Of a stretch of 40,814 nt of DNA, positions 1 to 40,572 are shown piece by piece (position 1 is the first letter of the stretch; every line of letters starts with the position of its first letter). This DNA is from Candidatus Aquidulcis sp. (GTDB lineage Bacteria > Chloroflexota > Anaerolineae > Anaerolineales > UBA4823): positions 1 to 40,814 of the forward strand of contig DYIZ01000045.1 of the NCBI GenBank assembly GCA_020723385.1, given 5' to 3'. The translations under genes and the position numbers were made by a program. The notes under the pieces are model-generated. The model made no database searches, was not told the origin of the DNA, and saw only the letters and a program-made list of their open reading frames with translations.

Positions 1-1145
1 TCAGTCTCGTCGGTGGGGCTATACTCCGTTTCCTCGATGTTCCCGCCCAATTCGATGGTGCGGCCTGTGGGGAGCGCTTCTTCGATCTCATCCCACGAAA
101 TGTAAGGGACAGGGAAATCTGCTGGGAGAGCGCCATCTGCGATCAAATCCCGCCGTGAGCGAAGCGCCTGTTCCTCGACATCGGCTGCCGCATCGGCCAG
201 GCTTTGGCGGTCGTGCAGGATCACCAACCCCTGGCGGGGGAGGTAGTCGAGGGCGGAGGCGGGAGAGTGCAGCAGAGAGATATGAAATTCGGAGGGAGGA
301 GAATCGTAAAACGTAAAACGTGAATCGTCGCCATCGTTACGTTTTACGGGATACGTTTTACGATCCTCAACCAGGAACTCGCGCGCCGGCGTCATCAAAA
401 CCTTTTCGAGCGCTTTCACCGTGCGCTGCGAAGCCGGGTCGAACTGGCGCAGGGTGTCAATCTCATCGCCGAAGAATTCGATGCGCACCGGGCGCAACTC
501 GGCGGGCGGCCACAGATCGAGGATGCCGCCGCGCCGCGAGAATTGCCCGGAGGCGGTGACGATGTTGACGTTCTCGTAACCCAGGGTCACCGCCGCGCGG
601 GCCAGCTCGTTGGGCTGGATGGTTTGCCCAATTTTGAGCGTCTTCACCGCTTTGAGAAAATCCCGCCGGGGCAGAGTGCGCGACAAGATGGCGCGCAGCG
701 AGGCGACGATGATCGGGTGTGCAGCCGCAGAGTCAGATGGTTTGGTAGTCTGATCGTCAGGTTGGTGTCTGACGACGATCTGACTATAGGATTGCATGCC
801 CGGAATGTGGTAGGCCGCCAGCGCGGTCAGTACGGCCAGCCGGTCGCGGCGGGTGGTCTCGCCCCAGGGAGCATCCTCGTAGAAGAGCGGGTTCGGCTCG
901 GGGAAGTAGTGGGTGGGAGCGGCTGGCAGCCAAAGCGACAGCTCGTCGAGCAAGGTGAGGGCATGGTCGGCGCGGTCGGTGAGCAGCAGGATCGGGCGCT
1001 TCAGCTCCCGATAGAGGGCAGCCAGCGCCGGCAGTCGGGCCGCGCGGCGCAGGGCGAGCGGCGGGAGGGTTGCAGCAGAAGCAATCGCTTCCAGGGTAGC
1101 TTGCAGGGATTGGGCGATCGGGTGGATGATGGGGTCGAGGGACAT
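1..1145 (-). CDS. mfd: Transcription-repair coupling factor Mfd, N-terminal part (runs off window)
   Basis: This frame is open from the window edge to an ATG at 1145, giving about 381 N-terminal codons. The protein matches the UvrB-like N-terminal module of Mfd (domains D1a-D2-D1b). Seen are the 'LLLTDRADHALTLLDEL' strand-helix, 'YFPEPNPLFYEDAPW', 'TASGQFSRRGGILDLWPP' (the conserved FSRRGGILD-type motif) and 'RIEFFGDEIDTLRQFDP'. In the family, this module binds UvrA while the missing C-terminal ATPase pushes stalled RNA polymerase off damaged DNA. Two low-complexity insertions, at about residues 121-139 and 261-281, are encoded by repeat DNA (listed separately) and fall where loops are expected. 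The gene is last in a seven-gene minus-strand string. The 100-bp gap before it holds a likely extended -10 promoter of its own. No strong Shine-Dalgarno sequence precedes the ATG. Confidence 0.93.
   Translation of the reverse strand, partial: MSLDPIIHPIAQSLQATLEAIASAATLPPLALRRAARLPALAALYRELKRPILLLTDRADHALTLLDELSLWLPAAPTHYFPEPNPLFYEDAPWGETTRRDRLAVLTALAAYHIPGMQSYSQIVVRHQPDDQTTKPSDSAAAHPIIVASLRAILSRTLPRRDFLKAVKTLKIGQTIQPNELARAAVTLGYENVNIVTASGQFSRRGGILDLWPPAELRPVRIEFFGDEIDTLRQFDPASQRTVKALEKVLMTPAREFLVEDRKTYPVKRNDGDDSRFTFYDSPPSEFHISLLHSPASALDYLPRQGLVILHDRQSLADAAADVEEQALRSRRDLIADGALPADFPVPYISWDEIEEALPTGRTIELGGNIEETEYSPTDET
303..364. repeat. Inverted heptamer repeat array inside mfd
   Basis: Units of seven bases (cgtaaaa, cgtaaaa, cgtgaat, then cgtttta, cgggata, cgtttta) run through 305-360. 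The first half is inverted relative to the second: atcgtaaaacgt at 303-314 pairs with acgttttacgat at 353-364. The array is translated in frame as Mfd residues about 261-281. Confidence 0.85.
731..785. repeat. Second inverted repeat inside mfd
   Basis: agtcagat at 731-738 is the reverse complement of atctgact at 778-785. Further gtctga/tcagac-type arms lie between them. The stretch is translated in frame as a Gln/Asp/Pro/Ser-rich loop at about Mfd residues 121-139, just before the conserved strand 'PIIVASLRAIL'. Confidence 0.7.
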
Positions 1146-23924: not shown

Positions 23925-26900
23925 TTATCTGCCGCCAGCCTCTTTGACGACAACTGGCAGGCATACTTTATAACCGATAACTTGCACCGTTTTTGAAGCC
24001 GATACACTGCCCGCCGCGTTGGCGGCTGTCACCGTAACGGTATAGATTCCGGTGGCTGTATAAACGTGGTTGACGACTGCGGGTGCGCCGCTGCTCAAGG
24101 TGGTCCCATCGCCGAAATCCCAGGCATAGCTCACGTTGGTGCCAGCCAGGATCGTGGCGGTGAAAATGGTCGTGCTGCCCATCAAGATTGGAGTGTTGCC
24201 CACCACTTGCAATCCGCTGACTGCCTGGTCCAGGAACAGGTAGAATGGTCCAGATGTTTGTGTATTGCCCGCCACATCCACGGCTTCCACCCACAAAGTA
24301 TACCGGCCGGCGATCAGCTCATCCAGGTGAGGGGCGAATTGCCAGGCCTGCGGGTCGCCGTCAACCGGCTGCTGGTAGACATTGCTGATGGGGTCGTAAA
24401 CCAGTACTCTCAGGCTGGCTATGCCGCTGCCATCGCTGGTTGCACCGCTCAACACCGCCTCGCCGCTCCCGCCAGGCAAGTAATTGAGTATATCCGCGCC
24501 TGCGATGAGCTGGATCGCTGTAGTTTGCGGCGCGACATTATCTACGGTTGTGGTCAGCCAATCGGTCGGCTCGCTGAGGTTACCGACCGCATCGTAGCCG
24601 CGTGCCCGCAGGGTGTGGACGACGCCATCTTCGGATGGCAGTTGCCATGTGTAGCGCCACTGCTGCTGCCCGCCCTGCGGCTGGTACACCAGCGCGGGAA
24701 GCCAGGGCGCGATATCCCAATCGAGCTGCACTTCGACCATCGTCACCAGCGTTTCGCCGTCTGATGCTGTACCGCCGATCACAGCCGCCTCGCCGGTCAG
24801 GAATTGCGGCAGTGAGGCAGCCACCGAAGGCGGATTGGGGTCAACCTCGAAGGTCGCCGAAACCACGGTAAACAGGCCAACCTGGTCGAAGGCGCGCACC
24901 CACACGGTGAATGAGGTCGCCCCAACCGGTACGCTCACTTCTGCCGACCAATTTTGCAGCCCCGTCGCGTCATGCCAGGTAGTGCCGGTCGAGACTTGTA
25001 CGAGCGCGATCCCTGCGCCCATGCCGTCGTCGGCGGCGCCGTAGAGCGTGACCAACCCGACTGGCAGCATCTGCCCCGGCATCGAGGTGATGATCACTTC
25101 CGGCGTTTCGCCATCCACCCGGTGGCTCAGGCTGGCCTGGCTGAACACATCGCCGCCGCTCTCCAGAGAAGCGCTGGTGGAGACATCCGACAATCCCGTC
25201 AGGTCGGAATCCAGCGCGGCTGTGATGGTTATGACATGGCTCACAGCCGCATCAATCGGCGGGACGTCGAGCAGCCAGTGGTCGGGCGCGGCGCAGTCGG
25301 CGCAGGCAGCCCCCTCTACGGTCAGATAAGACAACCCCGGGGTGGCTTGCAGCTCCACCTGGAGACCGTTCACCAGCCGTGTTTCCTGATTCGCCAGGTC
25401 TACCCGGTAAGTCAGCCCGGCGTTTGGCCCCCAGATGCTGCCGGGCAGTTGCGTGCTGGACAGCGCCATCAACACACTGTCGGCGCGCGGCTGCGAGTCG
25501 TTGATCACTGCCACGCTGCACAGATCATCCCAGTGATAGAACCTGGTCAGCGCTCCCGACAGGTCATTATTGGTGGGGAATGTGCTCCAGAAATGGCTTT
25601 CGTCAACCGACGGGATATCGTCGCTCACGGCGAAAGCTACGAGGTTCAGGCTGGAGATCGTGTCAATATTCCACGGGATTCTGGCCTCGGTGTCGCCATT
25701 CTCGCCCTGGACGAATTCCATACCGCCGATGGCTGCCCATTGCGCGCCGTTGTACGCCCACAGGTTGCCCTCGGTGCTGCTGGTGATGTTCAAAGCCAGG
25801 TCCGCCAGGAAAGGCAGGATCACTGGCCCGGCGGGAGTTTCGATCCCGCTGGCCGCGCCGCCTGCCTGGGTATCGAGGTAGACCCACAGGTCGCCGTCCA
25901 GCGCCCACCAGGCGCCCTGCCAACCAACGTAGAAAGCTTCCCCATCCCAGGAAGCGTAGAGGGCCGTGGTTTCCACCTGGCTGTTGGCGATATGCGGGCG
26001 CTCGTCGTCGTCGAGCCGTTCCGATTCGCGCCATTCGCCGTTCGCCAGGTCGAGATAGCCATCCACGATGATGGTCTGCTTCCGGTCGCCGCACGCCGTG
26101 GGCGGGTCGTCGAAGGTGCCCACGCGCCACGGCCCGTATTCGAGGTTGAACTGGTTCCCGGCGGCGTCCTTCGCGCCGATGTGAACGTACCAATCGCCGG
26201 GCTGTGAGAGCATTTCGGCAGCCGTGTTGCCTGTCACCACGCTGGTTGGGAATGTACCGGTTACCTGGTCAACTGCCAGCACCACATCGGCGATGCCAGA
26301 GCCGTCTTCGGGCGTTGTCCAGGTGATGACCAGCGCGGTGGGTTGGTCGAAGTGCGTTCCGGGCGGCGCAGAGAAGGTGACCGGCTCCAACCCGGTGGGC
26401 GGGACATTGTCCACCGTGATGGGACGCGCTTCGAGCGTGGTGTTGCCGGCCCGGTCGGCGGCGCGTGCCCACACCGGGAAGCTGACGAATTCTTGCCCGA
26501 TGGGGCCTTCCCACTCCAGGCTCCAATCCGACCCCGAAACCGAGGCGGGCAGCCAGGTGTAGCCGCCATCCAGGCTGATCTCCACTGAGGCCAGCCCGCT
26601 GTTGTCGTCGCTGGCTGTACTGCCGAAGGTAGCTGTATGCGTGATCCACCCGCTTCCCGATGGGGAGACGATTGCCAATGCCGGGGGTGTGGCATCGGCG
26701 GCGGTTTGCCCGGTGACGTTCAGGCTGAGCAGGTCCGTTTGACCGACGTTGCCCGCTTTGTCCACGGCAAAAGCCTGGGCGCTGTGCAGGCCATTGGCGA
26801 GCGTGATCCAGGCCCGGAAGGTGCGCGGCTGCCCGGAGTCCCACGGCTCAGCCGCCCACTGCGCATCCACACGGTTGCCGTCTACCTCGAAGTAGATATC

Positions 26901-29900
26901 GCCCACGCTGAACTGGCCGGCGGCGTAGTCAGACACCTGGACGCGCAATTCCAGCGGGGCGGTGACATCCACATCGGGAGCACCCGCGCCAGCCAGGACT
27001 CTGGAAGTCCACCCGAGGGTGGGCGCGACGCTGTCGGCCACGAAAGCCCCTTCGTACCAATCGGCCTCATCCGCTTCCTGGTTGCCGACCACATCGGCGG
27101 CGCGGCTGTAGAAGCGATACAACCCGTCTTGCGTGGGCGTGTAATCGGTTGACCAGTAAGAATAGGTCTGATCGGGGGTTTCGAGGGCCACCGCCGTCCA
27201 CGCCGTCGGCAAGGTGGCGGTGATTGGATCGTCTGGGTTCGCCACGAAACTGATCCCCACCTCGACTGCGCCCGCCCCGGAGCTGCCGATGACAGTCGAG
27301 ATGTCTTCCGCGCCGAAGAAGACGGTGAGCGGGGCGGCAAGCAGCTCGAAGCAGCCCATGTCGGCGCGCGCCCCGCCGCCGGGCGGGACTGCGCTGGCCC
27401 AGGAAGCCGCGTCAACCGCCGGAGAGGCAGGGGCGAGATAATACTCGTTGCCGTAGGGGTCGGTAAACTGCGGGTTCTGCCCGACGAGGTCGTGCGCGCC
27501 TTGCGTTAATCCTGTAGAAGCCTGATCATCATAATCCAAAGCGTAGTTGTACAGCAAATTAAAGTCGTTGAAAATCTGTCCGTCGAAGCGGGTTTGCAGG
27601 CCAATGACGTTATCGGAGAGAATGTTATTTTCTACAGTTACCCAGTTGCCTGACCCCTCCGTGTAAAGCCCCCAAATCTCGTCGGTTGACAGGGCGCGGT
27701 TGAAGAGACGCACATCGTCAATCAAGCCGTCGAAGCGCCGGGTGGTATCGTAGGGGGCGCGCCCGATGTTCAGTGGGTAAGAGGAAGAGACAACCGAGCC
27801 AGGCGCGTTCAGCGCGCCTTTCTCGATGCCATTGATGTAGATTTTGAGGGTATTTCCATCGTAAGTCCCGACCACGTGGTACCACGTCCCGGCAGCCATG
27901 AGCGGCGCGGAGAGCGCCTCCTGCCAGCCGCTGGCAATGGCAATCGCAAACGAGAGCCGTCCGTTCTCCCCGGTGCGCAAGACATAGCCGTGCGAGCCTG
28001 AGGCCCAATCGTCCTTCCCCACGATCGTGCCGATCCAGCGTTGAGCCGCCCAGGTGTCGGCGTTGATCCAGGCTGCCACGGTCAGGTTGGTGGGATTCAG
28101 GTTGGCCTGATTGGCGACTGACAGGTAATCGTCGCTGCCATCGAAGTGCAGAGCGCTGCCATTGCGCCCGCCCTCACCGGCAGTCGGGCAGGTGGCCCCG
28201 GAACAGGTCGCGGTGTGGCCGTTGCCGGAAGCGTCGGCGAAGCTGGTGGCCCCGGCAGATTCGTCGAGTTTCCAAGAGGCATTTTGCTGGGTAAGCCCGC
28301 TCAACACGCCTGCCTGGGTGTTGTTGACGATGGTGTTGAAAGAGACCAGCCCGGAGGAGCGGCCCTCGAAGCGCACGCCGAAGGCGTTGCCGCGGATGAC
28401 GTTGTGCGTGATGGCGACGCTGTTGGAAGCGCCAGCGACGTAGACTGCCGCGGCGCTGCCCGCCGTCCCGGTGAGGGTGAAATCGCTCACCTGGGCTTCG
28501 ATCACCCCCAGGAGGGTCACCGGGCTGCCGCCGCTGCCGTCCACTGTCGTTTCGTCCGCCCCGCTGCCGATGAGATGTACGTGGCTGGGCACGCGCAGGT
28601 TTTCCGCATAGCTGCCGGGGCCGACGCCAACGAAAGTTTGCAAGTTGCAAGTTGCAGGTTGCAGGTTGCACGAATTGGTCAAGGTTCGGACATAATCTGT
28701 TGCTGCATCGAGGGCATCTTGGATCACGTCGAAGGCGTCTACCTGCCAAGTCAGGCCGTCGTTGATGCAGGTTTCGCAGTAATCGTCGTCGGCGTAGAAG
28801 GCGGCGCGGCTGTATTCGAGGTAGCCGATGTCCACCCGTTTACCCGCGCCGGGCGGGTAGGGGTCGGTGGGATTGCCGGAGTCAATCGCCGGGGAGTTGT
28901 CGCTGAGGTGATAATTGTGCGAGTAGCGGTCGGCGAACAACGGGTCGAGGAACAGTTCGCCAGGGCCGGGCAGCGCCGGGCTGAGATCGGCGCCATTGTT
29001 CCAGAACAGGTTATAGGTGTGCAGGCGCACCGGGCTGCAACTGCCTGCCTGCATGAGAAGCCCCGTGCCAGAATTGAAGGCGATGATGGTATTGCGCACA
29101 TCCAGCGGGGCGCAGCTCCCAGTATTGACGCCGTTGGTGTTCTCGACCAGGGTGGTGTTGAAAACCTCGAGATCGGTGTCTTCCCCGTTGACAACGATCC
29201 CATTGGCCGCACCGCGCACGATGGAGCGGAAGAAGGCCACCGACTGCGCCCCATCTTCCACCCGTAGCCCGTCGCCGCCAAAACCCTCCCCGCTGAGAGT
29301 CACGCGCGACAGGCCGGCCCCAGCCACCCCCTCGGCGGCGACGAGCGCCCCGGTGAAGGAAGGCGGCGGCTCGATGATCGTGGTATCGGCCCCCGCGCCG
29401 ATCACGGAGACGCTGCTCAACAGGTAGAACGACTGCGGGTAGACCCCGGCCCGGATGAAAACGCGGTTTGCCCCGCTGAGGATCGCCGTTTGAATATCAG
29501 TGAACTCCTCCCCGCTGGGGGCGACGATGGCATCCGGCCGGTAAGCGTGATAACCGGCGGCGAGGAGCGACCCCGCCGTGAGCCGGTAGCTATCGTGAAC
29601 CGGATCGAGGAAGGCGGCCTGGGCGTGGCTGAGGATTTCGCCGCCAGCCAGCCGGATATCCGGCGTCCAGTCTGTGCCGCTCCCGCCCACGCTGGCGCTG
29701 CCCGAACCGGTGAAGTAGAAATCATCGGGGGGAAGATCGAAATTCAGCCACGACCCGTTGGCGGCAGTGTCGTCTACAACGAAAGCTACCTGATCGAGGG
29801 TGAGGCGCTGCGGGTAGAGCGCCACGGGGCTGAAGTCTTCCAGTTGGGCCACTCCTCCGCCGGTCACCACGTAGAGATCGTGGCCGTCGAGGGCCAGCCC

Positions 29901-32900
29901 CGCGCCTCCCAATGCGCCAAAAGCCAGATCGTCATCGTCCGGCGTTGCGGAGGAACCGTCGCCCAAAACCTGCCATTGATCCGAGGGGATGTTGTAACGC
30001 AAGAACTGCTTGCCATTGCCGCCGGGAATGGCATAGATCCAATCGCGGCCATCCCAGGCCAGCGAAGCGCCGGTGGAAGCGACATAAGGCATGGGAGCCA
30101 GGGCCTCCCAGGTGTTCGAGCCGGACAGGTAGCGGTAAAACTCGTCTGTGCTATCTCCGCGCAGCGCGTAAAAGATGTCTTGGGCAAAAACCAGCGCCGC
30201 CCCCTCGCCAGCGCTGGCAGGCAGGTTAGCCAGGGTTTCCCAGTAGCCGTTGTCGAGACCGTAGCGATAGAACAAAGCGCTGTTATTGCCAGCCAGGATA
30301 TACAGGGTGTTTCCCCTGTCGCGTGCAATCGCCGCGCCATCGCGTGGGTAATTGGTCAAATCTGTCCACTCGTCGGCGGCGATATTGTATTGGCTTAACG
30401 GATGGCGATAACGCGTCACGTGATTGACCGTGTCGCCCCCGATCTGGGTGAATAGCCCGCCGGCATACACAATGCTGTCCCAGACAGCCAGCGCTCCAAT
30501 GCGCTCGTCGGCTGTGCCGCCCGTCAAATCCGTCCAATTGCTGCCATCCCAATGAACAAGGTAAGTGGAGATTTCATCGTAAGTGTCCCAAGCGAAAACA
30601 TCGTTCCCATCGGCGACAATCTCAGCGGGCACATCGTCCATCCAAAAAGTACCCAGCGAGCTCCAGGTTCCCGCGTCAACGTCCCATCGGGCGACGTAGT
30701 TTTGGACGCCGCTGCTGGATACATACACATACCCTTCATCGTAATCCAGGCTATAGACAGTGCTGCCCACGCCGCTGCCCAGGGCGGACCAACTGCTGCC
30801 GTTCCACATAGCGACATTGGTTGCCCCAGTCACCCCGCCCAGGTTGGTAAAGGAGCCGCCCATGTAAACGTTGCCCAGGTCATCGGCATCCATGCTGGTA
30901 ATGTATACTCCAGACAGCATCGTTGTCCATGAACTGCCGTTCCATTTCGCCAGCCGGTCTCCGAAACCATTGGCCCAATAGGTAACATAGACATTCCCGT
31001 TGGTATCCACGGCCATATCACGGAAATACGGAACCGTGCCAATGCCAGGGAAAGCGCTCATCGCCGACCAGCTCGAGCCGTTCCAGCAGGCGACATTCTC
31101 GGAATAGATGCCCCCCGCATGGGTGAAGCCGCCGGCAACATACAGCCAGCCATTGCTGGGGTTCACAGCCATTGCATAGACGCCGCCATTGACGCCAGAC
31201 CCCAGCGCCGACCAGCTCGATCCGTCCCACACAGCGACATTATTAGCAGCCAGCCCGTCAGCCTGGCTAAATGAACCGCCAACGTAGAGTTGCCCGTTCG
31301 GGTCGAAAGCCAGGTCGTTCACCTGCGCATTCACCCCGCCCTCGAACGATTCCCATTGAGGAGCAATCAAGGCAAACAAGTTTCCACCATCGTTGGTCAG
31401 GGCGCTGCCGGGAACAAGGGCAGCCGGCAGCGGGGCAAGGTCCCAAGGATCCGTCCACACGTCAGTAGCCGGGTCATACTCGTACAAGTCTGAGCTGCCA
31501 TTGCCTGGCAAAACGAACACCTTGCCATCCGCGGCCAATACGCCGCCGCCTTCGTCTGTGGCGGCGCGGCTGTCGGTGGAGAGAGTGCTCCAGGCGTTGT
31601 CGAAGGCCGGGTCAGCCGGGCCGTACACCTCGATGTGGTTATCGCCTCCCACCAGCGTACACTGGTTCGGCGCAACGGTGCTGGTGCGATCCATGTAGAC
31701 CGCGTGCGTTGCGAAATCGTAGACCAGCAGCGATTCCAATTGGGTGACCAGGGTTGGGGTGATGTAGCCGCCCACCCCGGCATGATCCAGCTCGACAGCG
31801 TTGACCGCGTCGCGCAAGGTCATTTGCTCGATGGAAATTCCCGCGGCGTTCTGGATTTTGACCGCGTAGGCGCTGCCGCCGCCGTCCACGAAAACCGCAT
31901 CGGGGTGATAGCCTTGAATAGTCAGATCATTTTTGCCGCTGACGAGGAAGGGCGCATACACGCCGGGGCTGACGAGGATCGTGTCACCCGAAGATGCCGC
32001 GTCCACCGCGGATTGGAGGGTGGTGTAGCAGCCGGGGCAGCCGTCGTCGTCAACGGTTAGGACAGAACCAGGGGATAAGGGATTAAGGGATAGGGGATTA
32101 ACCCCTGATCCCCTATCCCCTGCCCCCTGATTCGCGACCGGCAGAGAATTTGGATCAACAAACGGCAGGTCGCCATACGCCTCGCGGTACATGCCCAGGC
32201 CAGCGGCTGCCGCGGCGGTGGGGATGAGTAACAGGTCGGAGGAGCCATCGGAGTTGAGATCGGCCCCGGCGGCGTAGGGGGCGGAGGCGGCGCTTTCCAC
32301 ACCGGTGAGGGTAGTTGCCACCGAAGACAGGTTGCTTGCCAGGAACAGGTAGGCATCCTCGTCGGCGTTGCCAATGAGCACATCGGCGTGACCGTCGGCA
32401 TCCACATCGCCAGCCGCCGCCAGGAAGCCGGAAGCCGCCGGGGAAAGGCCGCTGAAATCGTGGGTTGACCAATCCAGCTCGGCGTCGCCGAAAACCAGGC
32501 GCGGAGTGTCGCCGTTGGAAAAGACGAAATCGGCCAGGTTGTCGCCGTTCACGTTGCCGAGGGCAACCACTTGCGGAGCGCTGTCGGCGCTGGCAAATGT
32601 GGCATCGGCGTCGGACAACTCCAGCGAGCGTTTGGCATAGGCGCTAAAGAAGGCGCTGCCGCGGTACAGGTAGAGCGTTCCAGCCTGCGAGATGACGAAA
32701 TCGTCGTATTGGTCGCCGTCTACGTCGCCGACGCCGGTCAGCGCAGCGCCCATCGGGTTGGCGTTCACCTGGGCGGCATAACGCGTGTTCATAGCAACTG
32801 TTTCAGTCCACGCGCCGGGCTGTCCGAGCAGGAGGTAAATCCTATCTGCGCCAGCCACGCCCACCAGCAGGTCGGCGTAGCCGTCGCCATTTACGTCGCC

Positions 32901-35900
32901 AGCGGCCTCCAGACCTGACAGGTCTCCCAGACCTGTCAGGTTTATCACCGACCAGGCGGCAGGCTGGTTGCCGTCGAGCAGCACTTCCTGCCCGGTTGGG
33001 TTAGGCCGCCCGAAGATGACGAAGGCCCGGTTGTTGGCCGCGTCGCCAATGAGCAGATCATCGTAGCCGTCGCCGTTGACATCCCCGGCGGGGGCAATCT
33101 GCGCGCCGAGCATGGCCCCCGGCAGCCCAACGAATGAGCTGAGACTGTCGGAGAGCAGTTTCAAATCGGCGGGCACGGGCCATCCGCCGGCGCGGCCGTA
33201 GACGATGACAACTTTTCCATCGCCCCCAGTGGCCGCCGGTAAACCCACGGCCAGGTCGGCCAGCCGGTCGGCGTTGAAATCGCCGATCCAGGCGGCATGG
33301 ACCCCGGCGTCGTTCTCGGCGGCAGAATCCAGCCCAAGCCAGATGGTGGCGCTGGTGAGACTGTCGAGCACGCCAGCCAGCTCATCCGGGCGGGATGGGC
33401 CGGGCATACGGCCGACATCGTTGACCACACCGTACAACTCGACTGGCTGCCCGGTGATGATGTGAGGCGGATCGTTGAGGAAGGTGCGGTTGGTCAGCTC
33501 GTCGGTGGGCGGGACGACATCCACGATGATGGTGCGGCTCAGGGATTCAGAGATATTCCCGGCGCGGTCAACCGCGCGCACGGCAACAGTGTGCTCTCCC
33601 TGGGCGGACTCGGAGGAGGGAAGAGTCCAGTAATCCAGCCAGTCGCCGCCCGACAGTTGAACTTCGCGCCAGGGCTTGCCATCGGCGCTGACCTGGACGC
33701 GGGTGACGCCGGAGAGGTTGTCGCTGGCGCTGCCGGTGAGGGTGACGGTGATCACGCCGGCGTTGCCTGGCTCACCGGTAACAAAGGTCCCGTCGGCCAG
33801 ATCGAAGGTGACCACCGGAGGGGTGTTATCCACGGTGACGTTGACCGCATCGGGGGCAGAGACTCGCCCCAGGTAATCGTAGGCCTGCGCCTGCAAGACG
33901 TATTCTCCATCTTCGGGCAATTCCCAGGCGTAAGCCCATGGGCTGGTCCCTTCGGCGGTGACCGTGCCGCCTCCGGCAGGCAGGTCAATATCCACCCGCG
34001 TCACCCAACTGGTCTCATCGGAAGCCGAGCCGCCGATAACGTAGGTGGTGATCCCGCCGCCCAGGTAGGCGCCATCCAGCGGGTCGAGCAGCGTAACCTG
34101 TGGATTATCCACATCTGCCGCGATCTTTACACGGCTGGCGACATCGCTCACCTCGCCGCCAATTGGATAGGGCAGGCTGGCGAGGGCGTCGGCGACGATG
34201 GAGGCGGGCAGAGCAGGATCTACCGTGGCAGTGATCGTGGCGCTGACCGTTTCCCACAGTTGGAGGGTGTAGGGGCCGGAGAAGTCCCAGGCGAGGGGTG
34301 TTGAAAGTTGAAGGTTGCAGGTTGAAAGAGAGGAATTGTTGGGTGGAATGCGGTCGCCCTGGAGAGTTCCGGCTTGAATGTCGGTGAGGAAATTGGGGAG
34401 GCAGAGGGAGAGGGTGGATGTAATGGGGTGCGGGCCGGTGCTGGCGAGGGTGACGATGAAGGTTACTGTATCACCATTCTCAACATAGACCCCGCCGTCA
34501 GCGTTGGGACTGTAGGCAAAGGGAGCGGCTTCGAGGGTGAGGTGCGGGACATCGTTGAAGGCGAAGGGGCTGGTTCCGGCGGCGCGCTCGGAAACGTCAT
34601 CCAGACCGTCGCCATCGGTATCGGGGTTCTTCGGGTCGGAGAAAACCCGGATGGACAGAGATGTGTCAGGTAAGGTGACGAGCCAGCCTCCAACCCAGGA
34701 GCCGTCCACCAGGGGGTGGTTGACCTCTTCGGCGTCAGTCAGACCATCGCCATCGGTGTCGGCCTGGTTGATGCGAGTGCTGAGACGATATTCGAAACCG
34801 TCTTTCAAGGTATCATCGTCGCTGTCGGGGTCGAGCGGGTTGGTCCCCAGGGCGGCGCGCTGCTGATCCTCGAACAGATCGGAAAGCCCGTCGCTGTCGG
34901 AGTCCCAGTTATCTGCGCCGGTTCCGAGCTGGGTCTCTTTTGTGTTGGAGAGGCCATCGCCGTCCCGATCTGGGTTGAAAATATGGCCGGAGACAACCGG
35001 GGCCGCATTCCAGTTCCACAGGCCGACCATCGTAGTGGGCAGTACATCCAGGTAAAAGGTGCTCGGCGCCCAGCGATCACTTTCCTGAAGATCGTCAGGC
35101 AGATCGGTGGATGTCGAATTGGACCCCCAGCAAATCAGGCCGTATAAAGTGCAATCCTCGTACCGCGTGTCGGCATGGATTTTGGACATGAGCGTCATGG
35201 CGGTATCGCGCAGGGCAGCGTCGAGGCGGTATTCGACGGCGACCTTGTTGCTGCAAATGCGATAGTTGGAATAGGTGGCGCTGCCAGCCGCGGTGCAGGC
35301 CGGGTCGTTTTGGTTCACCGCCGCACCGCCGGGCATGGCGCCTTCGAACTGGCCGTAGACAGAGCTGTTCTGGAGGTCGCTGAAGTCGCCGTCCCCGGTG
35401 AGGATGATCTTGCCCCAAAAGAGATCGCTGACCCGGAAGCGATTCCCTGGCGTAACGCCGAGACCCTCGTTGACCAGGCCAGACTGGGAGTTGATGAAAT
35501 CGGCAGAATCCAGCTCGGTCAATGTGTTGGCGCTGTAAAAGAGCGGCGCGATATGCTCGATGATCCAACCGCTGAGGCTGAAATCTATCACGAAAAAGAG
35601 GATCAAATCAATGATCGCGAACACCGCTACCAGGATTGCGACAAAGGGTATCAGGCTGAGCAGGAACAAGACGATGGTGAAAACTGTAGCGGCAACGGCA
35701 GATGCAACGGCTAACCTCCATTCCAGGGGATTGCTAAAGTCGGTGGTCAGGCCAAACTGGGTCCAGATCATGATGACACTCACGACAGCTCCAATCACCC
35801 CCAGTATGCGAATATTGATCTTCATGCGGGTGAAAAAGCCGAAGTTTTGGCTAAGCTTGGTCCATCCGGTGATGCCGATATATTGCCCCTTTATCGCCCA

Positions 35901-38855
35901 TTGGATACATTGCGCCGCGGTGATTACCGATAAGGCGGTTTTAAAGACACGCACGAATGCTTTGCCGATGTACTTTAGTTCAGCGCTGACAGTAAAATCG
36001 AAATTGTAGAAGTCTATGTGAGAGGCAGTCAGCCCGGTGGCTTCGCCAAGCGCATCCCTGCCGCGCAGGTAAGACCAGTTGCCGGTTGGGTCGCCTAACC
36101 TTAGCCCGCCGCCTGGCTGTCCCAACTGGGCGGCTTCGATCAGGTAGGCTGGCAGGTTCCCGGCGCCGGGTTGGTTGAAGCGGTTGTACACTTCCTGGTC
36201 GAGGCGGCCCTGCGGGGCCAACCCCAATCCCCCCAGGCTGAGGATTTGAGTTATTCCAATACCCCAGGTCATGTAGAACATGTAAATGGTGGCCCTAAGG
36301 TCATTCTCGGTCAAATCGGGATACTGCGTCTGTAAATCCGCCAGGATAGCAGACAGGTCCGCGTAACGGGTAGAAACTTTTTCGAGCAATTCTTCGGTGG
36401 TCAGGCCTTGCCATGCTCCATCCTGGTAGGCGAAGATCGCCTGTTTCAGGCTGCGCTGGAGGCTCATCGGGATGTTGGCCAGGCTGGCCTCGAAGGCATT
36501 GCTCGGCTCGAACACGCCGTCGTCGCTCAAGTTGTATTGACCGATCTGCTCTTGGGTTGCAAGAAGCAGCGTGGGAGTGACCGCCTGCGAATAGGCGTTG
36601 CCATCGAGAAAAGCCAACAGGCGCGCTGACAGATCGGCGATCCCCGCGTCCATGTGGGCATAAGCGGGAGGCAAATCCACCGCGACGGGGGTGGTGACGC
36701 CCCATTTCTCGACTGGATCGGTGTTGGGGTTGGTAAAGCGGTCGTAGATGGCTTGCAAGTCGGGGTTCTGGTTGGTCAGGTAAGTGGCGCTGAGGCCGAA
36801 GACCAGGTTGAACAACTGCGCGTCATCATCGGGTATCTCGGGCGTGCCCAGGATGGCGCTCTGGTAGTCTTTGCTCATGAGGATTTCCAACCCGGTGACG
36901 CGGAACGACTCCCCGGCGTAGACCTGGATCGGCTGGATATTGCTGACCGTCTGGCCGCCTACAGATTCGTCCACGCTCATCTGCACAACCCAAGCCAGGC
37001 TGGCCGCCTCCCAATGGATGTCGGGAGTGTCGGGGCTATAGGGGATTTTGGCGTAGAAGGCCACGTATTGCCCCCCACTGCTGACCGGCATGAGCGGAGC
37101 AAACAGGTACTGATCGCCATTCTCGGTGAAGGCGGATACGCCATATTTTTCCGCCAGGTCTTCTTCCGGCGCCTGGTCGGTGCGCACTTTGAGCATGGGC
37201 TGGAGGCGGATGTCGTCGGTGGAGTCGTTCAGGTCTTGAAGCTGGCCTTTAGTGTCGTGCGGCCAATCGAGGTAGGATGTGGAGAAGCGCAGGCTGTCCT
37301 GGTTTTTCGGCTGAATCTGCACTTCGACGTAGCGGTAACCGTCAAAGCCGCCCGCCTGGCTATCGAGGGAGAAGGTGCTGGTGTAAGCTGTGCGAGCATA
37401 AGGGGAGAGGTCGAGGCTGTCGGGGACGAGATCGTCGTCGTTATCGTCATCCCACGGGTTGGGAATATCATCGTTATCGGGATCCCATCCGGGGGCTTCG
37501 CCGACGGGATTGGGCCATTCATTGAAATCCGCCATCCCATCGTCGTTGGAGTCGACCTTGAAGGGATCGGTAGACCAGTGCTTTCCCGCGAAATCAAAGC
37601 CTTCGACCTCGACTGTGTCGGTGATCATGTCGCGGTCGCTGTCGCCGTAATAGAGATCGGTGCCCAGGCAGTATTCGGTTTGGTCGTTGAGGCCGTCGAA
37701 GTCGGAATCCACACCGGGGGAGCCGGAGCCGCAGAGGGTTGATGGTTGGCGGTTGGCGGTTGGCGGTTGACGGTTGCCAGTTGACAGTTGTTCGTCGGTG
37801 GTCGTTTCCAGCCCGAGGGCTTCGGCGATTGGGTCGGCAGCGGCGGCTTTGGCTTGTTGTTCCCGAAAGCGAACAAGCTGGATAGATTCAAGCAGCGGGG
37901 AAAAGACAAAAGAGATGATCAGAAAAATGGCGACAGCCGCGTAGATGTGGCGAGAATAACGACGGTAGGTGAGAATCAGCGCAGCCAGGACGAGACAGGC
38001 AAAATAGAGGATCAGCGAAGAAGGCTGAAGAATGACCGATGACAAACGACCGGCGACCGAGGAAAGCTGACCGCTGACCGCAGAAAGCTGATGGCTGCCT
38101 GCTCCGAACTCCCGGAAATCCACGATGATGTGCATCTGGGCGTCGTAGAATTCGCTGGCGGCGGGCATGTCGAGGTCGAGCACCTGGCGGCGGGGCAGGC
38201 CGGCAGAATCGATCCACAACTCGCCGCTGCCGGTCATATTGCGCAGGTACTCGGGGATGGTAATTTCTGTGCCAGCCGGAAGCTGCCCCTGCAACTGCTG
38301 CGCCACCGCGGCGCGGGCATTTTCGGTGAACTTGTTGGCGTCAATATCGAAGGTGTATCGGGAAAATTGCTCACCCCCGGCCCACTCGGGCTCAATCGGA
38401 TGCACATTGGTCGCGGTATCCAGATAACCGAGAAAATCCTGGCTGGCCATGCCCCCCACAGCCCTGGCAGATGAATCCAGCGGCTGTAGTTTATCGCCTA
38501 CCTGTATGTAGGATTCATCCCCGCTTTGGACGATCGTCACCGGCGGAGTCTCGCCCTGGCCGCCCTCCACCTGCAACTGGGTGCGCGAATAATCGGGGAG
38601 GCGCACTTCGCCCTCGACGCGCCAGTCTATGCGTTGGTCGCTCTGGCCGATGGTTTCGGGCGCGGCACGCGGTAAGAGGGTTTGAGCAATGTCAGCGGTA
38701 AAGCTGTAGGAACCGGCCTCCAGGGCGCGCTGGCGGGCTTCCTCAACATCGTTGCGTTCTGCAGAAGCAGCCAGTTTGGTGTATGCCAGTAATCCGACCA
38801 GTAAAAATGATAAGAACCCATACCATACAATCCTGCTGGATCGCTTGCTATGCAT
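23925..38855 (-). CDS. Giant 4976-residue modular surface protein
   Basis: One uninterrupted frame from an ATG with AGGAGGT nine bases upstream. Approximate order: signal-anchor helix (9-29); LolA/LppX-like domain (35-250); heptamer-coded linker (251-279); two helices (277-323); second repeat linker (356-375); Ca-binding thrombospondin type-3 repeats (379-485); unassigned region; hydrophobic cluster of 3-4 helices (1005-1105); more type-3 repeats (1291-1435); CARDB/Ig-like (1440-1780); FG-GAP integrin-type propeller (1840-2215); beta-helix (2265-2405) entered by CxxC; Kelch/delta-60-like repeats with 'WDGSSWSALGSGV' (2415-3005); beta-helix (3105-3520); LamG/concanavalin-like (3522-3730); return to beta-helix (3735-3840); Ig-like (3850-4250); CBM9/DOMON-like (4252-4450); DUF11/Ig-like (4455-4875); PKD with 'YAWDFGDGTT' (4876-4965); tail 'VCLPVVVKEAGGR'. 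No catalytic site is evident. Adhesion or cell-contact is inferred from domain types. Confidence 0.9.
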   Translation of the reverse strand: MHSKRSSRIVWYGFLSFLLVGLLAYTKLAASAERNDVEEARQRALEAGSYSFTADIAQTLLPRAAPETIGQSDQRIDWRVEGEVRLPDYSRTQLQVEGGQGETPPVTIVQSGDESYIQVGDKLQPLDSSARAVGGMASQDFLGYLDTATNVHPIEPEWAGGEQFSRYTFDIDANKFTENARAAVAQQLQGQLPAGTEITIPEYLRNMTGSGELWIDSAGLPRRQVLDLDMPAASEFYDAQMHIIVDFREFGAGSHQLSAVSGQLSSVAGRLSSVILQPSSLILYFACLVLAALILTYRRYSRHIYAAVAIFLIISFVFSPLLESIQLVRFREQQAKAAAADPIAEALGLETTTDEQLSTGNRQPPTANRQPSTLCGSGSPGVDSDFDGLNDQTEYCLGTDLYYGDSDRDMITDTVEVEGFDFAGKHWSTDPFKVDSNDDGMADFNEWPNPVGEAPGWDPDNDDIPNPWDDDNDDDLVPDSLDLSPYARTAYTSTFSLDSQAGGFDGYRYVEVQIQPKNQDSLRFSTSYLDWPHDTKGQLQDLNDSTDDIRLQPMLKVRTDQAPEEDLAEKYGVSAFTENGDQYLFAPLMPVSSGGQYVAFYAKIPYSPDTPDIHWEAASLAWVVQMSVDESVGGQTVSNIQPIQVYAGESFRVTGLEILMSKDYQSAILGTPEIPDDDAQLFNLVFGLSATYLTNQNPDLQAIYDRFTNPNTDPVEKWGVTTPVAVDLPPAYAHMDAGIADLSARLLAFLDGNAYSQAVTPTLLLATQEQIGQYNLSDDGVFEPSNAFEASLANIPMSLQRSLKQAIFAYQDGAWQGLTTEELLEKVSTRYADLSAILADLQTQYPDLTENDLRATIYMFYMTWGIGITQILSLGGLGLAPQGRLDQEVYNRFNQPGAGNLPAYLIEAAQLGQPGGGLRLGDPTGNWSYLRGRDALGEATGLTASHIDFYNFDFTVSAELKYIGKAFVRVFKTALSVITAAQCIQWAIKGQYIGITGWTKLSQNFGFFTRMKINIRILGVIGAVVSVIMIWTQFGLTTDFSNPLEWRLAVASAVAATVFTIVLFLLSLIPFVAILVAVFAIIDLILFFVIDFSLSGWIIEHIAPLFYSANTLTELDSADFINSQSGLVNEGLGVTPGNRFRVSDLFWGKIILTGDGDFSDLQNSSVYGQFEGAMPGGAAVNQNDPACTAAGSATYSNYRICSNKVAVEYRLDAALRDTAMTLMSKIHADTRYEDCTLYGLICWGSNSTSTDLPDDLQESDRWAPSTFYLDVLPTTMVGLWNWNAAPVVSGHIFNPDRDGDGLSNTKETQLGTGADNWDSDSDGLSDLFEDQQRAALGTNPLDPDSDDDTLKDGFEYRLSTRINQADTDGDGLTDAEEVNHPLVDGSWVGGWLVTLPDTSLSIRVFSDPKNPDTDGDGLDDVSERAAGTSPFAFNDVPHLTLEAAPFAYSPNADGGVYVENGDTVTFIVTLASTGPHPITSTLSLCLPNFLTDIQAGTLQGDRIPPNNSSLSTCNLQLSTPLAWDFSGPYTLQLWETVSATITATVDPALPASIVADALASLPYPIGGEVSDVASRVKIAADVDNPQVTLLDPLDGAYLGGGITTYVIGGSASDETSWVTRVDIDLPAGGGTVTAEGTSPWAYAWELPEDGEYVLQAQAYDYLGRVSAPDAVNVTVDNTPPVVTFDLADGTFVTGEPGNAGVITVTLTGSASDNLSGVTRVQVSADGKPWREVQLSGGDWLDYWTLPSSESAQGEHTVAVRAVDRAGNISESLSRTIIVDVVPPTDELTNRTFLNDPPHIITGQPVELYGVVNDVGRMPGPSRPDELAGVLDSLTSATIWLGLDSAAENDAGVHAAWIGDFNADRLADLAVGLPAATGGDGKVVIVYGRAGGWPVPADLKLLSDSLSSFVGLPGAMLGAQIAPAGDVNGDGYDDLLIGDAANNRAFVIFGRPNPTGQEVLLDGNQPAAWSVINLTGLGDLSGLEAAGDVNGDGYADLLVGVAGADRIYLLLGQPGAWTETVAMNTRYAAQVNANPMGAALTGVGDVDGDQYDDFVISQAGTLYLYRGSAFFSAYAKRSLELSDADATFASADSAPQVVALGNVNGDNLADFVFSNGDTPRLVFGDAELDWSTHDFSGLSPAASGFLAAAGDVDADGHADVLIGNADEDAYLFLASNLSSVATTLTGVESAASAPYAAGADLNSDGSSDLLLIPTAAAAAGLGMYREAYGDLPFVDPNSLPVANQGAGDRGSGVNPLSLNPLSPGSVLTVDDDGCPGCYTTLQSAVDAASSGDTILVSPGVYAPFLVSGKNDLTIQGYHPDAVFVDGGGSAYAVKIQNAAGISIEQMTLRDAVNAVELDHAGVGGYITPTLVTQLESLLVYDFATHAVYMDRTSTVAPNQCTLVGGDNHIEVYGPADPAFDNAWSTLSTDSRAATDEGGGVLAADGKVFVLPGNGSSDLYEYDPATDVWTDPWDLAPLPAALVPGSALTNDGGNLFALIAPQWESFEGGVNAQVNDLAFDPNGQLYVGGSFSQADGLAANNVAVWDGSSWSALGSGVNGGVYAMAVNPSNGWLYVAGGFTHAGGIYSENVACWNGSSWSAMSAFPGIGTVPYFRDMAVDTNGNVYVTYWANGFGDRLAKWNGSSWTTMLSGVYITSMDADDLGNVYMGGSFTNLGGVTGATNVAMWNGSSWSALGSGVGSTVYSLDYDEGYVYVSSSGVQNYVARWDVDAGTWSSLGTFWMDDVPAEIVADGNDVFAWDTYDEISTYLVHWDGSNWTDLTGGTADERIGALAVWDSIVYAGGLFTQIGGDTVNHVTRYRHPLSQYNIAADEWTDLTNYPRDGAAIARDRGNTLYILAGNNSALFYRYGLDNGYWETLANLPASAGEGAALVFAQDIFYALRGDSTDEFYRYLSGSNTWEALAPMPYVASTGASLAWDGRDWIYAIPGGNGKQFLRYNIPSDQWQVLGDGSSATPDDDDLAFGALGGAGLALDGHDLYVVTGGGVAQLEDFSPVALYPQRLTLDQVAFVVDDTAANGSWLNFDLPPDDFYFTGSGSASVGGSGTDWTPDIRLAGGEILSHAQAAFLDPVHDSYRLTAGSLLAAGYHAYRPDAIVAPSGEEFTDIQTAILSGANRVFIRAGVYPQSFYLLSSVSVIGAGADTTIIEPPPSFTGALVAAEGVAGAGLSRVTLSGEGFGGDGLRVEDGAQSVAFFRSIVRGAANGIVVNGEDTDLEVFNTTLVENTNGVNTGSCAPLDVRNTIIAFNSGTGLLMQAGSCSPVRLHTYNLFWNNGADLSPALPGPGELFLDPLFADRYSHNYHLSDNSPAIDSGNPTDPYPPGAGKRVDIGYLEYSRAAFYADDDYCETCINDGLTWQVDAFDVIQDALDAATDYVRTLTNSCNLQPATCNLQTFVGVGPGSYAENLRVPSHVHLIGSGADETTVDGSGGSPVTLLGVIEAQVSDFTLTGTAGSAAAVYVAGASNSVAITHNVIRGNAFGVRFEGRSSGLVSFNTIVNNTQAGVLSGLTQQNASWKLDESAGATSFADASGNGHTATCSGATCPTAGEGGRNGSALHFDGSDDYLSVANQANLNPTNLTVAAWINADTWAAQRWIGTIVGKDDWASGSHGYVLRTGENGRLSFAIAIASGWQEALSAPLMAAGTWYHVVGTYDGNTLKIYINGIEKGALNAPGSVVSSSYPLNIGRAPYDTTRRFDGLIDDVRLFNRALSTDEIWGLYTEGSGNWVTVENNILSDNVIGLQTRFDGQIFNDFNLLYNYALDYDDQASTGLTQGAHDLVGQNPQFTDPYGNEYYLAPASPAVDAASWASAVPPGGGARADMGCFELLAAPLTVFFGAEDISTVIGSSGAGAVEVGISFVANPDDPITATLPTAWTAVALETPDQTYSYWSTDYTPTQDGLYRFYSRAADVVGNQEADEADWYEGAFVADSVAPTLGWTSRVLAGAGAPDVDVTAPLELRVQVSDYAAGQFSVGDIYFEVDGNRVDAQWAAEPWDSGQPRTFRAWITLANGLHSAQAFAVDKAGNVGQTDLLSLNVTGQTAADATPPALAIVSPSGSGWITHTATFGSTASDDNSGLASVEISLDGGYTWLPASVSGSDWSLEWEGPIGQEFVSFPVWARAADRAGNTTLEARPITVDNVPPTGLEPVTFSAPPGTHFDQPTALVITWTTPEDGSGIADVVLAVDQVTGTFPTSVVTGNTAAEMLSQPGDWYVHIGAKDAAGNQFNLEYGPWRVGTFDDPPTACGDRKQTIIVDGYLDLANGEWRESERLDDDERPHIANSQVETTALYASWDGEAFYVGWQGAWWALDGDLWVYLDTQAGGAASGIETPAGPVILPFLADLALNITSSTEGNLWAYNGAQWAAIGGMEFVQGENGDTEARIPWNIDTISSLNLVAFAVSDDIPSVDESHFWSTFPTNNDLSGALTRFYHWDDLCSVAVINDSQPRADSVLMALSSTQLPGSIWGPNAGLTYRVDLANQETRLVNGLQVELQATPGLSYLTVEGAACADCAAPDHWLLDVPPIDAAVSHVITITAALDSDLTGLSDVSTSASLESGGDVFSQASLSHRVDGETPEVIITSMPGQMLPVGLVTLYGAADDGMGAGIALVQVSTGTTWHDATGLQNWSAEVSVPVGATSFTVWVRAFDQVGLFTVVSATFEVDPNPPSVAASLPQFLTGEAAVIGGTASDGETLVTMVEVQLDWDIAPWLPALVYQPQGGQQQWRYTWQLPSEDGVVHTLRARGYDAVGNLSEPTDWLTTTVDNVAPQTTAIQLIAGADILNYLPGGSGEAVLSGATSDGSGIASLRVLVYDPISNVYQQPVDGDPQAWQFAPHLDELIAGRYTLWVEAVDVAGNTQTSGPFYLFLDQAVSGLQVVGNTPILMGSTTIFTATILAGTNVSYAWDFGDGTTLSSGAPAVVNHVYTATGIYTVTVTAANAAGSVSASKTVQVIGYKVCLPVVVKEAGGR
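28636..28670. repeat. Heptamer array in the giant gene (five units)
   Basis: Five tandem 7-mers (gtttgca, agttgca, agttgca, ggttgca, ggttgca), in frame at about residues 3396-3407, where the protein reads 'SCNLQPATCNLQT'. It interrupts a beta-helix turn. Confidence 0.9.
32071..32129. repeat. Inverted heptamer arrays in the giant gene
   Basis: Four units of agggat type (ggggata, agggatt, aagggat, aggggat; 32071-32098) are followed by four units of the complementary type (cccctga, tccccta, tcccctg, ccccctg; 32102-32129). This makes a long imperfect hairpin. It is translated as a Gly/Ser/Asn/Pro-rich linker (about 2241-2262) between the FG-GAP propeller and a beta-helix. Confidence 0.88.
32911..32943. 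repeat. Pair of palindromic 15-mers inside the FG-GAP region
   Basis: agacctgacaggtct (32911-32925), ccc, agacctgtcaggttt (32929-32943): a 33-base unit, a multiple of three, translated as 'NLTGLGDLSGL' directly before 'EAAGDVNGDGYADLLVG'. It is the same 15-mer family as in the intergenic DNA before eno. Confidence 0.9.
34300..34327. repeat. Heptamer array in the giant gene (four units)
   Basis: gttgaaa, gttgaag, gttgcag, gttgaaa in tandem, in frame at about residues 1510-1519, read as 'LSTCNLQLST'. It sits in a CARDB/Ig-like domain. Confidence 0.88.
37734..37789. repeat. Heptamer array in the giant gene (eight units)
   Basis: Units gagggtt, gatggtt, ggcggtt (three times), gacggtt, gccagtt, gacagtt, in exact period 7 with conserved -gtt ends. 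It is in frame at about residues 356-375, a linker just before the first calcium-binding repeats. Confidence 0.93.
38020..38103. repeat. Heptamer array in the giant gene (twelve units)
   Basis: Units such as gaaggct, gaagaat, gaccgat, gacaaac, gaccggc, gaccgag, gaaagct, gaccgct, gaccgca, gaaagct and gatggct in exact period 7. Because 21 bases make 7 codons, the protein shows a 7-residue rhythm (LSAVSGQ, LSSVAGR, LSSVILQ). It lies between the LolA-like domain and the next helix. Confidence 0.92.
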
Positions 38856-39693: not shown

Positions 39694-40572
39694 TTACGGG
39701 TGCGCGGGCCAGGAAAATTCGACCCAGTTGGTATAACCGTGCTTTTCCACCCCGTACACCCGCCCATGCGAAGGCTCTGAACAGCCTGGCTCGTCGGTTA
39801 CTCTTATGATCGTCTCGTATGAGCCGATCGGTGTAAAGACCAGCTCGCCCTTCTGGCATATCCAGGCCTCGACCAGATAGGGAAACTGCTCCGAGTCATC
39901 CCCGGCCTGTAAGTATAACGGGTTCCAGGACAGAATCACATCGTTTCCATCACGCTCTGCCCAAACCCCGGTCAGCGGGCCGTAATATGGAGATTGGGGC
40001 AGAGGAATGTACATTGGCGCAACGGACATTACATCTCCAGTGAGTTCCATAAGTGATGCATTGACCCAGCAGGGGTTGTCGCCGCCGATCGCCTGGATCA
40101 GGATCCAAGTGCCCAGATCATTGCGCCCGATGACCTCCAGGTTGCTGCCTTCTATGAGCGCGTATTTGTAAAGGTAAGGAGCGCCAGGCCCGTACCGGCA
40201 GTTAGACAATTGCAGCACTCTTCCACGCAGGACCGCATAGGTTGGTGTCATGGTCGCGGTATGCGTTGGAGATGGCTCTAAAGTGGGAGTCTCGGTTGGG
40301 GTTTGGGTGGGGATAAGCGTCTCGGTGGGGGTTTCCGTAGGCATGTCGGTAGCGGTTGCCGACGGGGTCAGGGTTGGGGTGCTGGTAGGGTTGGGCGTGG
40401 TGGTTGGGGTTGGAGGCAGGGTAGGCGTGAAATCCAGGCCGGCGGCGGCCAGCAGCGCGTTTGGAGTTGGACTTGCCCCAGCTTGTCCGGGCGGTTGGGA
40501 GTTCGATGGAAGATTACAAGACGCCAAGGCCAATAATAGGATTACACTAAAGAACAGGAGGAACATTCGCAT
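39694..40572 (-). CDS. Lipoprotein with TPT stalk and SH3-like domain
   Basis: 292 residues. A signal peptide ends in the lipobox LASC, with the lipidated Cys19. A Thr/Pro/Ser-rich stalk follows (about 45-112). An SH3-type domain (about 113-175) contains 'LQLSNCRYGPGAPYLYKYALIEGSNLEVIGRN' and 'WILIQAIGGDNPCWVNASLM' (both in pieces), the pattern of bacterial SH3_3 domains, with two Cys likely disulfide-bonded. A C-terminal beta-rich domain (about 195-290) resembles a fibronectin-III-like fold ('DVILSWNPLYLQAGD', 'YLVEAWICQKGELVF'). It is probably anchored outside, binding peptidoglycan or a surface partner (inference). Convergent with the DsrE-like gene. Confidence 0.87.
   Translation of the reverse strand: MRMFLLFFSVILLLALASCNLPSNSQPPGQAGASPTPNALLAAAGLDFTPTLPPTPTTTPNPTSTPTLTPSATATDMPTETPTETLIPTQTPTETPTLEPSPTHTATMTPTYAVLRGRVLQLSNCRYGPGAPYLYKYALIEGSNLEVIGRNDLGTWILIQAIGGDNPCWVNASLMELTGDVMSVAPMYIPLPQSPYYGPLTGVWAERDGNDVILSWNPLYLQAGDDSEQFPYLVEAWICQKGELVFTPIGSYETIIRVTDEPGCSEPSHGRVYGVEKHGYTNWVEFSWPAHP

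Follow-up and report, generated by a model that had tools for sequence, protein, structure and literature searches.

Degenerate heptamer arrays between and inside the genes of a Candidatus Aquidulcis genome

Results

Heptamer arrays in a giant gene

The stretch of DNA analysed here (the window) is the whole of contig DYIZ01000045.1, 40,814 nucleotides from Candidatus Aquidulcis sp. (Chloroflexota; Anaerolineales), whose genome (assembly GCA_020723385.1) comprises 6.43 Mb in 239 contigs. An open reading frame (ORF) on its minus strand encodes a giant multidomain protein of 4976 residues, with family matches to laminin G, bacterial Ig-like, PKD, FG-GAP, TSP3, kelch and beta-helix, and within this ORF lie the subject of this study, tandem arrays of seven-nucleotide units (period-7 arrays). 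A first-pass annotation of the sequence had described two such arrays near the N-terminus, flanking a pair of helices, and both are indeed present there, bracketing a pair of hydrophobic stretches that we read by eye from the translation.

23925..38855, minus strand: gene (ORF) of the giant multidomain protein, which carries the arrays
37734..37804, minus strand: array 1, ACCGTCA/ACCGCCA family on the coding strand, about 8 units, in the linker after the second hydrophobic segment
37805..38019, minus strand: inter-array segment, encoding the two hydrophobic stretches kept by homologs (alignment read by eye)
38020..38097, minus strand: array 2, nearest family ACCGCTG on the plus strand (72% fit), in the linker before the first hydrophobic segment
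28638..28670, minus strand: third strong array of the same giant gene, ACCTGCA/ACTTGCA family

Array 1 has about eight clean units at 37737-37790 and ragged ends, which agrees with the eight units originally counted in it. Array 2 is degenerate, with about 8-11 units over 59-78 bp and with indels, and is weaker and less regular than array 1, so that the twelve units originally counted there seem a generous figure. Its coding strand is the complement of ACCGCTG, i.e., the stop-free direction.

We set the strict array threshold at a score of 16 and call arrays of score 11-14 weaker. At score 16 the window holds three arrays, as compared to none in any of 20 third-order Markov copies of it, and for arrays of score 11-14 the corresponding figures are three in the real window and two in the 20 copies together. 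Synonymous-codon shuffles of the giant gene, in which the protein is kept, gave no array in 166 of 200 cases, one array in 33 and two in a single case, against three in the real gene, and the best array score reached by a shuffle was 31.6 as compared to the real 35.4. Since such shuffles still give some arrays, part of the rhythm is already in the amino-acid sequence. A scan of the window for periods 4-15 found arrays at the scan threshold only for periods 7 and 14, and Tandem Repeats Finder, run at its lowest score, listed short weak repeats with periods of 8 to 30 as well.

Arrays and unit families across the genome

Our sample of the genome covered 1.42 Mb: 980 kb in 60 pieces picked by contig number, 400 kb in 20 pieces of large contigs, and the window itself. 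The large-contig set includes contigs matched in an earlier search, which may bias its counts upward. It contains 79 period-7 arrays (49 in the number-chosen contigs, three in the window and 27 in the large contigs), with lengths of 24 to 134 bp. The number-chosen pieces and the window (1.02 Mb) hold 52 of these as compared to 0 in a third-order Markov control, and the expectation of a genome-wide rate above chance was thus confirmed. Period 7 is not exclusive: the same 1.42 Mb contains 33 period-8 arrays, eight being the most common period after 7 among those below 12. These include a class of ACCTGNTT / ACTTGTTT type (for instance L015:2777-2860, L060:11791-11840 and L041:6433-6517), several of them as inverted pairs; seven of the 33 lie inside predicted genes, and 17 have at least three copies of an ACCTG/ACTTG-type core.

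Nine unit families, chosen by eye from the first 52 arrays, fit 48 of the 79 arrays at 80% identity and leave 31 outside, while 100 sets of shuffled units averaged 6.4 fitting arrays and never exceeded 27. Among the 27 arrays that played no part in the choice of families, 14 fit at 80% (shuffled units: mean 2.1, maximum 9). Exact tandem heptamers in 1.02 Mb are likewise concentrated, with 60 of 168 belonging to 6 of 85 classes. The nearest family of 23 of the 79 arrays is ACTGATN. When units are set in the phase that maximises AC, a pyrimidine occupies the sixth position in 90% of the AC units as compared to 52% in the background, the units within an array not being independent. A constant period with differing units, as proposed from the window, thus recurs in the arrays here and in other genomes. 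The further proposal, that repeats are made regardless of sequence, goes too far for this genome, given the fit of nine families to 48 arrays, although the remaining arrays and the other genomes have many further units.

Placement in and between genes

Genes were predicted with a home-made hexamer scorer in two versions, and coding counts are therefore approximate; for instance, an array at TsaD (L063), coding by the first version and intergenic by the second, is left out of the coding count. With this scorer, 27 of 1151 predicted genes contain 34 arrays between them, another 12 arrays overlap gene edges, and 33 are intergenic. Predicted genes cover 91% of bases, and array density is 2.6 per 100 kb in coding DNA as compared to 34.5 elsewhere, i.e., about 13 times denser outside predicted genes. 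The comparison of coding with intergenic DNA suggested at first pass thus gives a clear enrichment outside genes, and the view that regular use inside one gene is unusual is not supported, as 34 of the sampled arrays are inside 27 predicted genes. Non-coding arrays fall between co-directional, convergent and divergent genes in 30, 8 and 5 cases, respectively, against 556, 71 and 87 such gaps, with no strong promoter or terminator bias.

Within genes, in families with one stop-free strand, that strand is the coding strand in 24 of 24 arrays (ACCGCTG 9/9, ACCGTCA 8/8, TATCCCC 6/6 and ACCTTCA 1/1), and the 34 coding arrays together have 0 stops in frame as compared to 129 antisense, a result that is partly definitional because a gene with stops would escape calling. 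The opposite orientation of arrays 1 and 2 in the window follows from the same constraint, because the coding strand must be the stop-free one. We also considered these two arrays as the arms of one long stem. Their duplex energies are -68.2 on the plus strand (shuffle mean -44.6) and -48.4 on the minus strand (shuffle mean -27.0), but array 1 pairs nearly equally with the wrong strand of array 2 (-62.6), and we did not adopt the idea since stop avoidance already accounts for the opposite orientation.

The hosts of coding arrays identified by family models include aspartate kinase, DNA primase (DnaG), NuoG (two arrays), Elp3, a copper-type P-type ATPase, a lipoyl-acyltransferase-like protein and a DEAH-box-helicase-like protein. 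The last of these (L061:111-2711) has an apparent HNH-like segment in its C-terminal half, as read by eye. Comparison with relatives covered three hosts, aspartate kinase, DnaG and NuoG. The array loop of DnaG has 29 residues as compared to 4-15 in 29 of 29 relatives, and that of aspartate kinase has 37 as compared to 11-19 in 27 of 29 relatives (two are unreadable there, and L137 is poorly aligned), so that in these two proteins the arrays add 14-26 loop residues relative to every readable relative. The second NuoG array sits in a short variable stretch. Arrays in genes, some of them essential, thus add or replace short protein stretches with the frame intact. Mis-binned contigs are an unlikely source of the compared genes, the best outside matches of NuoG and DnaG being members of the family at 68% and 71%. 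The NuoG query also matched G000:C68:48395-49726 and its relatives, which are probably formate dehydrogenases; the one in-frame TGA in them may encode selenocysteine.

Hairpins

Each array was folded with 40 nt on each side, on the better strand, and a z below -3 was called a hairpin (60 shuffles for arrays, 25 for place-matched controls). By this measure 36 of the 79 array regions fold into hairpins as compared to 15 of 79 place-matched controls; in genes, 10 of 34 arrays and 2 of 34 controls are hairpins, and elsewhere 26 of 45 arrays and 13 of 45 controls. Random, mostly coding windows gave 6 of 79. The three arrays of the window, folded alone, gave z values of -1.1, -0.8 and 0, i.e., no hairpin. 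Hairpin inserts are found in DnaG, Elp3, the copper ATPase and a helicase, and L051 carries two near-identical 58-bp hairpins 789 bp apart, with about 20 bp of right flank similar by eye and surroundings that otherwise differ.

Homologs and relatives

Searching 60 other genomes for the N-terminal part of the giant protein yielded ten homologs in five of them. Aligned by eye, these keep the N-terminal domain and the two hydrophobic segments, and both array-bearing linkers are conserved in neither length nor sequence. No homolog carries a period-7 array that reaches score 16; at a looser threshold L036, alone among them, has a CCCTAAC-type weak patch (score 11.8) in the linker after the second segment. 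The ortholog comparison proposed at first pass thus gave neither the same linker residues nor the array in any homolog.

The three-unit ACTGATN pattern has 175 overlapping matches in this genome, as compared to any at all in just 1 of 36 other genomes of the family (2 matches, control 1). In a sample of the phylum 20 of 400 genomes match it, the highest other counts being 39, 57, 62 and 79, all in one family of the same order and with large differences within genera. Five family relatives yielded no period-7 array of any unit over 251 kb, and three other members of the order yielded four over 117 kb; the pieces used are non-random, lie on contigs matched earlier and include one (of G057) with a known array. 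Within another family of the order, two genomes of the same genus, G177 and G113, have 21 arrays in 260 kb and 13 in 140 kb, respectively, on contigs selected for holding matches.

Within that other family, five array loci of G177 could be aligned with as many as three relatives. In two of the five the unit family is kept and the units are changed. The array at L224:18125 is, as read by eye, common to four genomes of two genera and has species-specific units, and at L224:18634 the units vary. The spacer L230:14517 has an ACTTTCG-type hairpin in G177 and an ACCAATT-type hairpin in G113, so that the site is kept and the family replaced; we count this exchange within a syntenic spacer among the points in favour of the first-pass interpretation. 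At L224:16225, where only one flank aligned, G177 has an array and the matching stretch of three others has none. In three of the five cases the array closely precedes a start codon that has a likely ribosome-binding site (by eye). Among kinase paralogs of the Candidatus Aquidulcis genome, a single site has no array, 1.8 units without change of length, a gain of 21 bp or a gain of 36 bp, no order of descent being implied. Six kinase paralogs stand on one 20-kb piece, L058 (G000:C138), with kin in L027 and L059 that have an FGE-like second half (domains by eye).

Other features of the window

Three weaker patches, each with a scored part of score 11-14, and a short repeat complete the window.

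32072..32131, minus strand: TATCCCC-family patch in both orientations, giant gene (scored part 32103-32129)
34300..34328, minus strand: ACCTTCA/ACTTTCA-family patch, giant gene (scored part 34300-34324)
302..362, minus strand: ACGTTTT-family patch with two opposite arms, partial Mfd-like gene (scored part 302-328)

The family match of the Mfd-like ORF (3-1145) falls below its cut-off because the contig edge cuts the gene. Near the end of the contig, at 40372-40429, a 30-bp unit is present about twice.

Discussion

The explanation that we favour, with a confidence no better than evenly balanced, is a lineage-specific turnover of degenerate heptamer arrays at the level of DNA, which acts throughout the genome and is tolerated in protein linkers, the arrays of the window being its coding members. 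An array would start from a short chance seed and would then lengthen or shorten by whole units or groups of them, keeping a 7-nt register, and unit families would be exchanged between arrays by recombination or template switching. Inside genes, arrays would persist only where a floppy loop is tolerated and the strand is stop-free. If they persist in genes only where harmless, the 7-residue rhythm of the protein would be a by-product of a DNA-level process and not a design at the level of the protein.

Several observations weigh against turnover as a full account. The fit of the unit families depends on the cut-off: at 62% identity 70 of the 79 arrays fit, but this is lax, as shuffled units average 46 and reach 63. 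Conservation within the ACTGATN unit is uneven, the non-consensus rates along it being 0.023, 0.030, 0.030, 0.038, 0.195, 0.038 and 0.436 (22 arrays, 133 units), which suggests a selection or recognition that is absent from a pure turnover model. At the free position of ACTGATN, neighbouring units are alike in 42 of 111 cases and distant units in 96 of 262, with no signature of recent slippage. Shared unit order between ACTGATN arms is not in excess (P 0.57, 0.44 and 0.17 for 3, 4 and 5 units), and there is therefore no sign of recent copying between arrays; whole-array copying between loci was set aside on the same ground, the L051 pair alone favouring it. The ACGTTTT family has none of its seven arrays in genes despite a stop-free strand, and hence stops alone do not decide placement. 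Finally, the first array of NuoG occupies a length-variable loop with zero net gain.

More than any other observation, the uneven conservation within the unit hints that the arrays are read by something. Alternatively, the arrays might be recognition or structure elements in a 7-nt register, with core positions kept and units swapped wholesale, maintained by a factor or a copying process that counts in sevens, and proteins would be littered with their translated by-products. We regard this as possible but rather doubtful.

A different alternative, which we likewise think unlikely, is that the arrays are mobile palindromic elements, similar to the Rickettsia palindromic elements, inserted as units and moved by an enzyme that recognises hairpins. 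The excess of hairpins over place-matched controls, the hairpin inserts in four hosts such as DnaG and Elp3, and the near-identical pair at L051 are what such elements would leave. However, more than half of the array regions, the three of the window among them, are not hairpins, no fixed ends or target duplications were recognised (though no systematic search for these was made), and shared unit order is not in excess. Nor is there an expansion of Y1 transposases: the genome has 6 Y1_Tnp matches, within the range of 0 to 7 among 60 relatives, most of which lack ACTGATN arrays, and a link to such transposases of the kind known for repetitive extragenic palindromic (REP) elements was rejected on this count.

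It is also conceivable, with a similarly small chance in our judgment, that the arrays serve as platforms to which a protein or an RNA-binding factor attaches. It would recognise a short core once per 7 nt, and this core would be kept by selection while the other positions drift. The position-specific conservation in ACTGATN and the pyrimidine at position 6 are consistent with this, as are the array at L224:18125 kept in four genomes of two genera and the location of three of the five aligned arrays upstream of a start codon. Against it, the core differs among families, no candidate factor was found, and the non-coding arrays have no strong bias among gap orientations; moreover, since the phase of the AC units was itself set to give the most AC, only the other positions of those units are informative.

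A sequence-blind polymerase slippage with a 7-nt footprint that makes arrays anywhere, in line with the mechanism regardless of sequence envisaged at first pass, seems to us similarly unlikely. It would account for a constant period with many units across genomes and for the arrays outside the nine families, and the ACCGTCA family, which holds array 1, has a slippage-like signature, its neighbours being alike in 43 of 56 cases as compared to 72 of 144 for distant units. Yet a few families recur far above shuffled units and a few classes dominate the exact tandem heptamers, an 8-nt class is common too, ACTGATN lacks the neighbour correlation, and two-arm hairpins are frequent. Selection of the linker peptides as protein features, with the DNA pattern secondary, is very improbable and a protein-level function of the 7-residue rhythm was rejected: the two main arrays of the giant gene do lie in linkers and part of the rhythm survives synonymous shuffling, but those linkers are unconserved in the ten homologs, arrays also occur in unrelated enzymes, and their greater density in non-coding DNA is hard to reconcile with it.

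Cyanobacterial STRR heptamers provide a precedent for several tandem heptamers in one genome. Bacterial repeats with heptameric units are already recognised as a class (PMC4679880, PMC4692102), and Calothrix is mentioned in this context (PMC4692102). The arrays described here share the features of this class: tandem 7-nt units above chance, over-representation in non-coding DNA, and variation of unit number or sequence at one site, as seen at the five aligned loci of the other family and in the kinase paralogs. The TAACTGA direct repeats of marine Beggiatoaceae, cyanobacteria and Bacteroidetes are mostly intergenic and often just upstream of start codons, and the idea of slippage with a 7-nt footprint is there credited to Mrazek 2007 (PMC4679880). 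ACTGATA here is the same heptamer rotated, and the reverse orientation of TAACTGA reads LSVISYQ (PMC4679880), which is read here too in L046:1440-3392. The arrays of the window do not contain this unit in any rotation, their nearest families being ACCGTCA and ACCGCTG, and unlike the TAACTGA repeats (PMC4679880) those of the present genome comprise several families, mosaic arrays and two-arm hairpins, with 34 of 79 in predicted genes. The GGGNATC and GGGGA(C/T)T heptamers of Xanthomonas and Nostoc, which the TATCCCC family resembles by eye, are degenerate, single or in inverted pairs (known from Xanthomonas) and over-represented in non-coding DNA; they are G-rich with a quadruplex proposed (PMC4692102), whereas here there are several other families and one replacement of a family in place.

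The likeness to the Rickettsia palindromic elements lies in hairpin-forming segments that are read in frame within unrelated metabolic genes, but those elements form families of about 150 bp according to a review (PMC10969869), while here the repeats are of 7 nt and many arrays do not fold. Heptamer periodicity is not mentioned for them in the passages of that review considered here (PMC10969869). An in-frame segment in unrelated genes that is absent in relatives is present here in DnaG and aspartate kinase (two of the three hosts compared); a defined family and length is lacking, given the unfolded arrays of the window and the spread of lengths. Borg tandem repeats are similarly fast-evolving and occur both between and inside genes, but they belong to archaeal extrachromosomal elements and encode perfect amino-acid repeats (PMC9879509), as compared to degenerate units in a chromosome-sized bacterial genome.

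Among the papers listed by our searches of the open-licence literature, no title concerned heptamer arrays in Chloroflexota, and none pointed to the same combination of features in one genome together with unit replacement at a kept site. What seems new is the coding load, the joint occurrence of several array features within a single genome, and a site that persists while its unit is replaced. Such arrays have long been on record with their mechanism unsettled, and here they are read through housekeeping enzymes, with some positions of the unit kept and others free. The kept site with a changed unit and the uneven conservation within the unit make slippage, copying and selected recognition distinguishable by the comparison of close genomes. 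Our findings also indicate that odd in-frame protein segments in such bacteria may be translated repeat DNA.

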